Below, piece by piece: positions 34,268 to 37,964 of a stretch of DNA of 39,115 bases. The notes beneath the pieces are model-generated. The model was not told where the DNA came from, ran no database searches, and worked only from the letters and a program-made list of their open reading frames with translations. This DNA is from an uncultured Granulosicoccaceae bacterium (GTDB lineage: Bacteria > Pseudomonadota > Gammaproteobacteria > CALCKW01). The position numbers and the translations under genes were made by a program. The stretch is from the NCBI GenBank assembly GCA_937925815.1, contig CALAMQ010000160.1, positions 1 through 39,115 of the forward strand, read 5' to 3'. Position 1 is the stretch's first letter, and every line of letters begins with the position of its first letter.

Positions 34268-34303
34268 ACAGCCTAAGCAGCACAGCCTAAGCAGCACAGC
34301 CTG
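34268..34303. repeat. 14-bp tandem repeat over the 3' end of the operon
   Basis: A 14-base unit (CACAGCCTAAGCAG) is present about 2.6 times between 34268 and 34303. One copy supplies the TAG stop of the minus-strand gene that ends at 34287. The repeat lies in the 32-base gap between the convergent NYN gene and that gene. Confidence 0.75.
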
Positions 34304-34931
34304 CACGCGCAGCCATGCGGTCTGCAAGCCACTCAAGCTTCAGACGCTGTGCTAGCGGTCGCTCGACTGAACCATGCGGCAATTGATTGAGCACCTTATT
34401 TGGTGCCACAGTTGCAAGACGAAATTCTTCTTTGTACTCGCCGACAATTTCCGCAAATTCAAACGGGAAGTCACGCATGGTCGTACCAACACCGTGCAAC
34501 AGCCGACCGGGGCGCAACAGCGTGAGCCCCTCTGGTGCACTTGCGCTTGCGCGCGCGTAACGCGGGTCGAGGAAAAAGACAAACCACTGCCCCTGCGCCA
34601 GACACAAGGCTTCAAAAACCTCCAATGCATCGAGCCGCCCCAGGCGATGAAAAATAAGCGAATCGCGGGATCGAGTCTGTAGGCGCGAGAGGTAAGCCAT
34701 CGCACCGACTGTGCCATTGACCGGCACCGGATTTGTCGGGGTGTAAGCAAAGCGCCCTATCGCACCCGGCACTTCCTCGGCTGCGCCATTCGAAAGCGCG
34801 TCCTCTGCAAATTCTGCCGACATAAACGACAGTTGGTACTCCGCGTCTTCTAGCAAACGATTGAGCCCGTCGACTTCGGCGTCCAACTGCGCCTCTGCCG
34901 TGCGCTGTGAGCGGTGACGAAACATGTCCAT
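34287..34931 (-). CDS. Hypothetical protein, third gene of the 37964-34287 operon
   Basis: A 214-residue protein I do not recognise. It has a charged N-terminal helix (about 10-45), then a compact region with PVPVNGTVGAMAYLSRLQTRSRDSLIFHRLG, and a central segment EVFEALCLAQGQWFVFFLDPRYARAS. Near the end LATVAPNKVLNQLPHGSVERPLAQRLKLEW is well ordered in appearance. No signal peptide or membrane segment is seen, so it is probably cytoplasmic. It starts two bases after the zinc-ribbon gene ends and is presumably translated with it. Its stop codon lies within a 14-bp tandem repeat. Confidence 0.75.
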   Translation of the reverse strand: MDMFRHRSQRTAEAQLDAEVDGLNRLLEDAEYQLSFMSAEFAEDALSNGAAEEVPGAIGRFAYTPTNPVPVNGTVGAMAYLSRLQTRSRDSLIFHRLGRLDALEVFEALCLAQGQWFVFFLDPRYARASASAPEGLTLLRPGRLLHGVGTTMRDFPFEFAEIVGEYKEEFRLATVAPNKVLNQLPHGSVERPLAQRLKLEWLADRMAARAGCAA

Positions 34932-34933
34932 GA

Positions 34934-36220
34934 TCAGTCCCCGTCAAAAAAAGTGTGTTGCAATCCGGCGACGCCATCCGCGAGCGCTTCACTGCCGACT
35001 GACTCTGCCGCCTCCAGCAAATCTGACATTGCGCTACGCATCAAACGACGTGAAGTGCGCAACTCCGCGAGCCTCTGTGGTGCACACCTCAACGGCTGGC
35101 TGAGACGCTTTTGAAGCGTCAACAATGACGCCAAACGGCTGATGAACGCCTCTGCAACGGCATCACCCTGTTGCACAATCGAGGTACATCGACGACACAA
35201 TGCCACCACTTTATCGCCCTCCGCCAAAAGCACAGGCCCAGCGTGGCGCCAGTAGTGCGCGACCAGAGCCTGAACGATTTTGCCAGGCGCCCCACCTGCG
35301 GGCGGACAGAAGTCGAGGTAGGCGTCCAGCAACCGATCTGTGGGCAACGTATCCAATGACGACACCAGCGAAGACACGATGCCATCCAAGCGAAGGATCA
35401 GCGCGCTAACAACATCCGACACACTGGCAACGTCCACCACTCCAGCTCGACGACGGCTGTCATTAAGCTGCGAAAAAAGCGCGTCCGCATCAATCGCCTC
35501 AAAGGCACTTTCCAGGTCGCGCACGCTTTGCGCAAGCTTGATCGAGTCCACATCATCTGAGCGCACAAACCGCCAGTGCAAACAGTTCAATCGCGCGAGC
35601 GGCGAGAGTGTCCCGGGCGATGTCTCGCCGTTGATCAACGCGCGCGATTCCTCGACTCCTAGGTCGCCAAGCCAATGGACTTCAACCTGTAATCGCTTGG
35701 CTGGATCGAGCAAACTTGCGCTGCTAACCGTCCACGATTCCCCGTCCACTGTGTTGGCGACCGCACGGGTTGGCAGCCGATCAATTGAATCAGTGCTCGA
35801 GGCACCTAGAACAAAAAATGGGTTGCCATCGAGGGTATTGGCGAGCCATCGGCGCGGCTCAGCCCTGCGCGTGCTCGCGCTGCCAGCGAGCACGGCTTTG
35901 GGTTTGTTCGCGGTTCGCGACGTCTCTCGATCGGACGCGAATCCAAGCAACTCCTGCAATTGCTTGTCGCTCAAACTGTGCTCGACGCTGCGCTGTTTGA
36001 CGGCCCTGTAAACCGGGTTATCAAACCGCGAGTCTTCTGACTTACGCGCTGTCGCTGCAGTCGAATCATAGCCACTGCGTGAGATCGCTTGGCGCAATTG
36101 ATCAACGGTCTCAGGCCGCCGCTGACAGGACGGGCAGCTCCCAATCACACCACTGCGCGCCGCGCCGCAAGCGAAGCAAACTGATTGCGGCAACGAGATC
36201 ACATCGAGCAGGTCCGTCAC
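34934..36220 (-). CDS. Zinc-ribbon protein with J-domain-like region, function unknown
   Basis: A 428-residue, probably cytoplasmic protein. Four cysteines at 15, 18, 29 and 32 (CFACG and CPSC) form a zinc ribbon. After a low-complexity linker, residues 132-185 read NPFFVLGASSTDSIDRL, then SASLLDPAKRLQVEVHWLGDLG. This resembles a DnaJ-like N-terminal module, where NPF-x-LG is followed by DP-x-RRL-x-x-E, though without a clear HPD. The rest is helical with a further CxxC near 345. The start is GTG 36220, one base after the previous gene's stop. I cannot assign a function. Confidence 0.75.
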   Translation of the reverse strand: MTDLLDVISLPQSVCFACGAARSGVIGSCPSCQRRPETVDQLRQAISRSGYDSTAATARKSEDSRFDNPVYRAVKQRSVEHSLSDKQLQELLGFASDRETSRTANKPKAVLAGSASTRRAEPRRWLANTLDGNPFFVLGASSTDSIDRLPTRAVANTVDGESWTVSSASLLDPAKRLQVEVHWLGDLGVEESRALINGETSPGTLSPLARLNCLHWRFVRSDDVDSIKLAQSVRDLESAFEAIDADALFSQLNDSRRRAGVVDVASVSDVVSALILRLDGIVSSLVSSLDTLPTDRLLDAYLDFCPPAGGAPGKIVQALVAHYWRHAGPVLLAEGDKVVALCRRCTSIVQQGDAVAEAFISRLASLLTLQKRLSQPLRCAPQRLAELRTSRRLMRSAMSDLLEAAESVGSEALADGVAGLQHTFFDGD

Positions 36221-36221
36221 A

Positions 36222-37964
36222 TCAATAACCTCTTGCCGTCAGTTCAGTCTGCAAGCAGCGGTAGTAGGCGGACGGCCCGCGCGACAACCGATCTTGCTGG
36301 CAGGCCGCTTCAATGTCCTTACGGTGTGCAAAACTTGCGACCCGCATATCGGGCTTGGGGCCAACGCGATCAAGCGCCTCGAGCTCATCGCTAACACAGC
36401 CATAGAAGTTGGCGATATCAAATACCGTTGACCCCGACGAGCACATTGATTCAATGGATGCGCGCTCGGTGAAATCCACCTGTTTGATGAACACCGGATT
36501 CAACGCGTCCGAGAGGTTGGCGAACTGCCCAGTCACGCAGCGCGCGTGCTCTCCTGCCGCCGCAGCTTCAAAAGGCTCACAGCGACTCTCAATCACAGTC
36601 ACAACGCTTTGTGGCAACCCCGCCGACTCCACCACATTCTGATTGGTCAGCTTGACTGCAAGGCCCGCTTGTTCCGCTTTACACACATAAAAAGCCGCGG
36701 GCCCCTCTGTGGCGCGCAGCGGTCCACAGGTGGACAACACCAAGCGACGTTCTTCGTCAGAGAGCGGCGTCAAAGCGACATTCGGTGCCAACTGCAAGGC
36801 CTCAAGCTGGCCGTCGACGCAGCCAGAGTAGTTGCTGTCTGCGCGGGACCGGCACAGCTGTACAATCGCGAGTCGATCGGCGTCGGCCAGGCGCAATAAC
36901 GCCTCAGCCACCGCATTTGGCAGCGCATTGACAGCCGCTGGTTCCGTATCCAACGGGGTCTGCACGCTGTCTGCTTGCACTGCGTCGTCAGTTGACTGTT
37001 CGTTTTCTGGGCTTTCACTTGCCTCTTCATCTGTCGTCTCGCCACGCGCTACAGCGTCATTGAGCAACAGCAGTGTGGTGGCGAAGTCTGTGGACTGAGG
37101 TTCGGCCATCGCATCGAGAAAGCGGGCTCTGGCTGCTTGCGTTTCCAGCGTGTCCAAGCCAGACATTTCGCCGTCGTAGTAGTTGAGTTTGAACAACAAC
37201 CACTGAACATCTCGCACCAGATCTGAGGGCTCGGCATTGCCCGTTTGTGCAGATGCAGTTGCGATTGGCGTCTGATCAACACCGCGCTGGGGGGCGCCGG
37301 CGGCGACCGAATCAGCCTCAGAAAGGGACGCCTCTTCAGCGGGTTCAATCGGCAACAGAAACGCCGTTTGACCGTCCGCGCGAATGGCATCCGCCCGTGC
37401 GAGCACGTCGGCCTCAGCGAGCGCGAGATCATCGCCTTGATACTGGAATGAAGCGCATCGCGCGTTGAGATCTGCCACGCTGGCATTCAATCGCCTGACG
37501 TCTACCGCTTGCGTGGCAACAACATCACGCGCCGCCTGCAAGCGCATTTCCTCTGACAAGCAATACCGAATTTCGGCGCGACTCAGCAGCTGCGCATTCC
37601 CTTGAGAAGGTTGTTTTACTGCTGCGGTCTCACCATCATTGGACGCCGAGCCGTCAGTCGGCAGGTTATCGCCACGCCAGACGATCATCGCAACCACCAA
37701 CAACGCACTGACAACTCCGAGGCAGAGCCACCCGAACCAGACCCCACCAGACCTTCGCGCAGCGGCAGGTGTGGCGGCGCTGTCTGTGTCATTGCCAAAG
37801 CGAACCTGGTTGCCTGCAGGCGCGGGAACGGCGAGATCAGTCAGTAAGTCCTCAACCGGAATACCGAGTGCTGCTAAACCAGCAAATCCACGCGGTTCCT
37901 GATCTTTTGCCCAGGTTGACTGCATCGTAGTGGGTCGACTCAACCGTTCTGTGTTACCGAACAC
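36222..37964 (-). CDS. Membrane-anchored protein with peptidoglycan-binding-like segment and Cys-pair repeats
   Basis: A 580-residue (or 567 from ATG 37925) protein, first in a three-gene operon. Residues 1-74 are cytoplasmic and a single helix follows at about 75-96. A periplasmic segment 130-190 has IRYCLSEEMR and LNARCASFQYQGDDL. Residues 248-285 read VRDVQWLLFKLNYYDGEMSGLDTLETQAARARF, which looks like a peptidoglycan-binding (PG_binding_1) fold. An acidic linker follows, then five degenerate repeats each with a Cys pair: 371/382, 413/428, 462/476, 508/523 and 555/570, several with a GP-x-x-xYxxC pattern. Function unknown. The start is ambiguous between GTG 37964 and ATG 37925. Confidence 0.78.
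   Translation of the reverse strand: MFGNTERLSRPTTMQSTWAKDQEPRGFAGLAALGIPVEDLLTDLAVPAPAGNQVRFGNDTDSAATPAAARRSGGVWFGWLCLGVVSALLVVAMIVWRGDNLPTDGSASNDGETAAVKQPSQGNAQLLSRAEIRYCLSEEMRLQAARDVVATQAVDVRRLNASVADLNARCASFQYQGDDLALAEADVLARADAIRADGQTAFLLPIEPAEEASLSEADSVAAGAPQRGVDQTPIATASAQTGNAEPSDLVRDVQWLLFKLNYYDGEMSGLDTLETQAARARFLDAMAEPQSTDFATTLLLLNDAVARGETTDEEASESPENEQSTDDAVQADSVQTPLDTEPAAVNALPNAVAEALLRLADADRLAIVQLCRSRADSNYSGCVDGQLEALQLAPNVALTPLSDEERRLVLSTCGPLRATEGPAAFYVCKAEQAGLAVKLTNQNVVESAGLPQSVVTVIESRCEPFEAAAAGEHARCVTGQFANLSDALNPVFIKQVDFTERASIESMCSSGSTVFDIANFYGCVSDELEALDRVGPKPDMRVASFAHRKDIEAACQQDRLSRGPSAYYRCLQTELTARGY

Follow-up and report, generated by a model that had tools for sequence, protein, structure and literature searches.

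Layout of the locus and its three products

The subject of this study is a run of three minus-strand open reading frames (ORFs), here named A, B and C, in a 39,115-nucleotide stretch of DNA (the window) from an uncultured marine Granulosicoccaceae bacterium (contig CALAMQ010000160.1). The ORFs occupy window positions 37964-36222, 36220-34934 and 34931-34287. They are separated by one base (A/B, 36221) and two bases (B/C, 34932-34933), as an earlier note on this DNA had described. That note had placed the start of A at the GTG at 37964, yielding a protein of 580 amino acids (aa). The ATG at 37925 is the more likely start, because the protein of a congeneric species (locus L091, genome G002) begins at the aligned MQS. 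The genes, and the hairpin that divides them from the gene upstream, are as follows.

36222-37925, minus strand: gene A, single-pass membrane protein of 567 aa, counted from ATG 37925
34934-36220, minus strand: gene B, 428 aa, with a zinc ribbon, a J-like segment and a helical C-terminal part
34287-34931, minus strand: gene C, soluble mixed alpha/beta protein of 214 aa
38129-38150, minus strand: terminator-like hairpin downstream of the SSB gene, dividing A-B-C from the upstream gene

Terminator-like matches were overall no more frequent than expected from shuffled sequence. None of the three proteins matched a family above cut-off in Pfam or NCBIfam, and each matched 0 families in PADLOC-DB 2.0.0, which covers known anti-phage systems. 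B and C also had no PDB relative by sequence search.

A is Cys-rich and predicted to be membrane-anchored, as the earlier note had it. It has one strong hydrophobic stretch with positive charges on the N-terminal side. Twelve of its 13 Cys lie beyond this stretch and can be grouped in twos: 122 with 157, and five further pairs of the form C-X(10-14)-C.

37875-37889, minus strand: predicted cytoplasmic N-terminal tag GFAGL, residues 13-17; motif found across loci in A and in a further protein, D (see below), with G13 and F14 invariant in 21 A homologues
37680-37736, minus strand: predicted transmembrane segment, residues 64-82; maximum Kyte-Doolittle 19-mer of 2.58 at residue 64
37326-37583, minus strand: predicted extracytoplasmic 'IRYC' domain, residues ~115-200; C122, R156 and C157 invariant in 21 sequences
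37101-37220, minus strand: degenerate peptidoglycan-binding-like segment, residues ~236-275; weak TIGR03979 match, PF01471 in homologues
36222-36878, minus strand: C-terminal repeats of five C-X(10-14)-C pairs, residues 350-567; from the alignment and the Cys positions

Alignment with 20 homologues revealed that the tag and the IRYC domain are common to them. The Cys-pair repeats are of the same type in several, namely in A of L070, L073, L075, L080 and L083. The invariant Cys 122 and 157 likely form a disulfide. The peptidoglycan-binding-like segment that had been proposed for A is supported by homology, with PF01471 matched by 14 of the 21 aligned A homologues, but the copy in window A is degenerate and was unmatched at an E-value of 0.01. 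Matches in G049, G022 and G018 and similar weak ones were judged marginal or merely of PG_binding type and were discarded. In one A homologue of 718 aa (L073, 5708-7864) the extracytoplasmic half includes a lytic transglycosylase domain of the SLT type. Since PF01471 and, in L073, the SLT domain occur in homologues, we infer that the half of A with the paired Cys is extracytoplasmic and faces the cell wall.

B carries what its Cys pattern identifies as a zinc ribbon with two CxxC knuckles (residues 15-18 and 29-32), as had been predicted. Its conserved parts are:

36125-36178, minus strand: zinc-ribbon motif CFAC...CPSC, residues 15-32; four Cys invariant in 22 sequences
35945-35974, minus strand: conserved LxDxQLxxLL, residues 83-92; L83, D85, Q87, L88 and L92 invariant
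35666-35824, minus strand: J-like segment NPFFVLG...LLDPAKRL lacking HPD, residues 133-185; from alignment and profile comparison
34946-35602, minus strand: helical C-terminal part, residues 207-425; from alignment and an AlphaFold2 model

Across B homologues the J-like segment follows the consensus NPFxxLG ... L-DPxxRL. Its score against a profile built from genuine J domains of related genomes was 19.8, compared to a mean of 9.2 (standard deviation 1.9) for shuffled versions, and 0 of 300 column shuffles scored as high. In the AlphaFold2 model of B (mean pLDDT 78) the chain beyond residue 207 is folded into long helices. The model showed only generic helical-bundle similarity, the highest Z being 10.7, against designed repeat proteins, which is below the tool's meaningful level for helical bundles.

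The AlphaFold2 model of C had a mean pLDDT of 80.5. Its alignment is marked by one signature:

34713-34733, minus strand: NPVPVNG, residues 67-73; NPxPVNG in homologues

C homologues with NPxPVNG were also found outside any such operon, in Bacteroidales, Megasphaera, Bradyrhizobium, Ignavibacteriales, Desulfovibrio and on a Vibrio plasmid (lone C loci include L092, L093, L094, L095, L096 and L099). Those of Bacteroidales adjoin a TPR-like or a large NTPase-like ORF, and the Vibrio-plasmid homologue lies near a DarT-like gene.

The trio within its genus and in a larger operon

The three remaining species of the genus (G001, G002 and G003; Granulosicoccaceae) all keep the order A-B-C. In the window and two of the three congeners the trio lies between the same SSB and NYN-domain genes. 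Identity to the window in G001 and G002 was 44-51% for A, 38-40% for B and 59-66% for C, compared to 73-85% for SSB and NYN. The nonsynonymous divergence (dN) was 0.27-0.74 and the synonymous divergence (dS) ~1.5 or more. Pairs with finite dS gave a dN/dS of ~0.2-0.3 (B-C pairs 0.09-0.31), with dS near saturation. Judged from the low identity relative to SSB and NYN and from dN far below dS, the trio genes are under purifying selection but evolve faster than their neighbours. The A, B and C frames are intact in all four species, with the tag and the zinc Cys kept. In G003 the trio is at a different location, A is shorter and B is without the J-like segment. This species also carries a further A-like gene, a paralogue located where a different contig ends (L037, 7646-8605). 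A GspE/PilB-type ATPase gene lies directly upstream of the G003 trio (L008, 11749-13545); a link to type II secretion was dropped, as this ATPase is absent next to the trio in the other three species.

Outside the genus, A-B-C makes up the latter half of a longer operon, U-Hsp70-AAA+-A-B-C(-D-E-RDD), hereafter the parent operon. A single-sequence search of genome contigs with B gave no match, and B is rare (3 matches in 398 genomes of the phylum, the window itself included). Where that search had failed, a C profile recovered 28 loci in the genome collection. Class-wide profile searches yielded homologues in two complete genomes, and in both an Hsp70 of 829-831 aa and an AAA+ ATPase of 482-488 aa precede A and B. 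The order is Hsp70-AAA-A-B-C in Comamonas testosteroni and Hsp70-AAA-B-A, with C not recognised, in the other. Mapping of ORFs gave U-Hsp70-AAA-A-B-C in Rhodocyclaceae, Comamonas, Acidovorax, Pusillimonas, Arenimonas and Rhodobacter. Hsp70-AAA-A-B-C, with U not separately called, was found in Piscinibacter, Aeromonas, Sinimarinibacterium, Lysobacter and Bordetella. The identity of C in these loci was confirmed by alignment, and D, E and an RDD protein often come after it. Hsp70 and AAA+ stand directly before A-B-C in 14/14 loci with enough upstream contig. A second C-like gene (L087, 13697-14362) and a second A-like gene (L070, 12735-14324) were seen downstream of the operon at one locus each.

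The parent operon has a scattered distribution in Proteobacteria, with copies on plasmids and on Tn7-like transposons. B, Hsp70 and U matched 11, 12 and 13 of 72,556 plasmids, and these were nearly the same records, which ties B to the parent-operon Hsp70. A minimal B-U-Hsp70 set, with no A, C or AAA+ recognised, is present in Aminobacter and Sinorhizobium. No homologues were found in phage records, and E. coli genomes gave no near match. The open-licence papers searched contain no description of the parent operon; as the search covered such papers only, this absence is weak evidence.

The tag, in the form GF(A/S)GL, is common to A and D of the parent operon and to an extra protein in one variant. 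The pattern GF[SAT]GL was present in the first 110 aa of 36 of 501 ORFs of the loci (a count that includes duplicate loci), and all but two of the 36 were A, D or other operon-encoded proteins.

The trio was thus found adjacent both in the genus and in distant taxa, and in identical order wherever all three genes were present. This supports the earlier proposal of one assembly or pathway and runs counter to the case named in the note as refuting it, namely that the genes would seldom be neighbours in other genomes. That three functionally unrelated genes are adjacent by chance is contradicted by this conserved arrangement; no point was found in favour of this explanation, which we consider vanishingly improbable. 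A family relation between the trio and the parent operon is strongly supported at the sequence level: the gene order is shared, A is homologous over its whole length, B is homologous in its zinc ribbon, J-like segment and helical part, and C is homologous too. The trio is also under purifying selection.

The dedicated Hsp70 (~830 aa) and AAA+ were found neither upstream of the trio nor elsewhere in the window genome (99.13% complete) or its congeners (79-96% complete). Hsp70 matches in the genus were 33-38% identical and lay in DnaK-sized frames of 592-661 aa, with weaker ones in frames of 434-460 aa. The AAA matches were FtsH-like. This genus is the only lineage found that has B but not the parent-operon Hsp70. 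In a tree of C the trio-only and parent-operon sequences separate with modest support (83/80 and 84/68). Given this support the trio may either have lost Hsp70 and AAA+ or represent an older core. A decaying remnant, left after loss of Hsp70 and AAA+, could account for the missing C-terminal extension of B, the B of G003 and the degenerate peptidoglycan-binding segment of A. However, the intact frames in four species, a dN/dS well below 1, the preserved tag and zinc Cys, and a C tree that places the trio beside and not inside the parent clade make such decay improbable.

Neighbourhood of the parent operon and possible outputs

On two plasmids the parent operon directly follows the tns genes of a Tn7-like element, and at L036 it lies near conjugation genes. 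Among 81 proteins encoded beside the parent operon are BrxC (E-value 0), a type I methyltransferase with a specificity subunit, six proteins of the phage integrase family and an HmaC-like ATPase. BrxC is encoded within ~7 kb of the operon at L071, and type I methyltransferase and specificity genes lie near it at L074. On the Polaromonas plasmid pPNAP01 (L134, 4606-10641) U-Hsp70-AAA-B lies between zorA and brxD. On Sinorhizobium meliloti pSymA (L142, 6828-15000) a B-U-Hsp70-small-Eco57I/TaqI-type methylase cluster adjoins a UvrD helicase/ATP-dependent endonuclease pair. The neighbours of the parent operon thus include genes of BREX and Zorya systems, along with type I restriction genes and Gabija-like ones. 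This neighbourhood is suggestive of defence or mobile-element cargo.

The output of the module is possibly envelope quality control or anti-phage defence. As a defence system, the A ectodomain would sense envelope damage during infection, and Hsp70/AAA+ or a substitute would act on a target. The mobility and restriction genes near the parent operon, the pPNAP01 and pSymA contexts and the variability of A ectodomains agree with such a role. Yet no PADLOC family was found for Hsp70, A, B or C, the neighbourhoods stand without random mobile loci as a control, and the window trio looks non-mobile, lying between SSB and NYN genes in three species. We regard defence as rather unlikely on this evidence. 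A role in quality control of the envelope or of proteins, with the module as cargo for stress tolerance that has no connection to phage, would explain why one operon combines Hsp70 and AAA+ with peptidoglycan-binding domains and, in one homologue, a transglycosylase domain. It also fits the way the window's genus has stably kept the trio on the chromosome. The recurring recognisable neighbours, however, are defence and mobility genes and not other stress genes, and this role is considered credible but short of probable.

Proposed role and relation to known systems

On balance we lean towards reading A-B-C as the adaptor arm, tethered to the membrane, of an Hsp70/AAA+ operon that has apparently not been described before; here the arm persists without the Hsp70 and AAA+. 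A would span the inner membrane with a cytoplasmic N-terminus. Its part outside the membrane, with the likely disulfide domain, the peptidoglycan-binding-like part and the variable Cys-pair array, would sense the cell wall or tether to it. The cytoplasmic tag may be bound by B and/or C. In the parent operon B would be a scaffold from which the dedicated Hsp70 and AAA+ motor receive either a client or the membrane protein that bears the tag, with C as a second adaptor or the effector. In the window organism the trio might use the housekeeping DnaK or work chaperone-free. Survival of the tag where Hsp70 and AAA+ are absent suggests that its reader is B or C; contacts among A, B and C and the docking of the tag are likewise conjectural. 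A bolder and distinctly tentative extension holds that the tag-and-adaptor assembly of a mobile Hsp70/AAA+ machine is now a fixed chromosomal system without a dedicated chaperone, and that the tag is a new cytoplasmic docking motif gathering several membrane proteins on one adaptor.

Several observations weigh against the adaptor-arm view. The HPD motif, which lies between helices II and III and marks a functional J domain, is absent in 21/21 B sequences compared, which makes stimulation of Hsp70 by B doubtful. Comparison of the segment with J domains gave an HHalign probability of 17-19%, which is weak in absolute terms. For both reasons it is called J-like and not a J domain, and the earlier description of B as a zinc-ribbon protein with a J-like region holds with that restriction. 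Searches of the models with Foldseek and VIA-align returned no significant solved-fold match for B or for C (best Z for C 2.3). Lineages with Hsp70-AAA-B-A without C, or with B-U-Hsp70 and no recognised A, C or AAA+, show that the trio is divisible. The idea of a chaperone-like module linked to an envelope sensor, raised in the earlier note, is borne out in so far as the parent operon encodes a dedicated Hsp70 and AAA+ directly upstream of A-B-C. It is weakened by the absence of both from the window genome and genus and by the missing HPD, and the sensor role of A is itself inferred.

Compared to DnaK/J-domain systems (PF00226, DnaJ), B is alike in its J-like segment and, outside the genus, in its coupling to an Hsp70. 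It is unlike them in lacking HPD and a Pfam DnaJ match, and the window genome has no dedicated Hsp70. The AAA+ of the parent operon matches IetA models of the IetAS anti-phage system (best E-value 7.4e-27). The partner of IetA is a protease. Only the AAA+ domain matches, no protease partner was seen, and the window trio has no AAA+.

The closest relative is the parent operon itself (for example in Shewanella xiamenensis, NZ_CP091834.1, and Comamonas testosteroni, CP044131.1). It shares with the window the order A, B, C; the N-terminal tag, IRYC domain, peptidoglycan-binding-like region and, in several cases, Cys-pair repeats of A; the zinc ribbon and J-like segment of B; and the NPxPVNG of C. 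In contrast, no U, Hsp70, AAA+, D, E or RDD gene lies next to the trio in the window and its genus, window B is without the C-terminal extension of parent-operon B proteins, and the window locus is chromosomal and looks non-mobile. The Hsp70/AAA+ operon is without an entry in Pfam (for A, B and C), PADLOC-DB or the papers searched; it moves with Tn7-like elements and lies beside BREX, Zorya and restriction genes. Set against it, the window lineage is a natural deletion experiment in which only A, B and C were kept, which narrows the tag reader to B or C and makes the role of the membrane arm without its chaperone directly testable.

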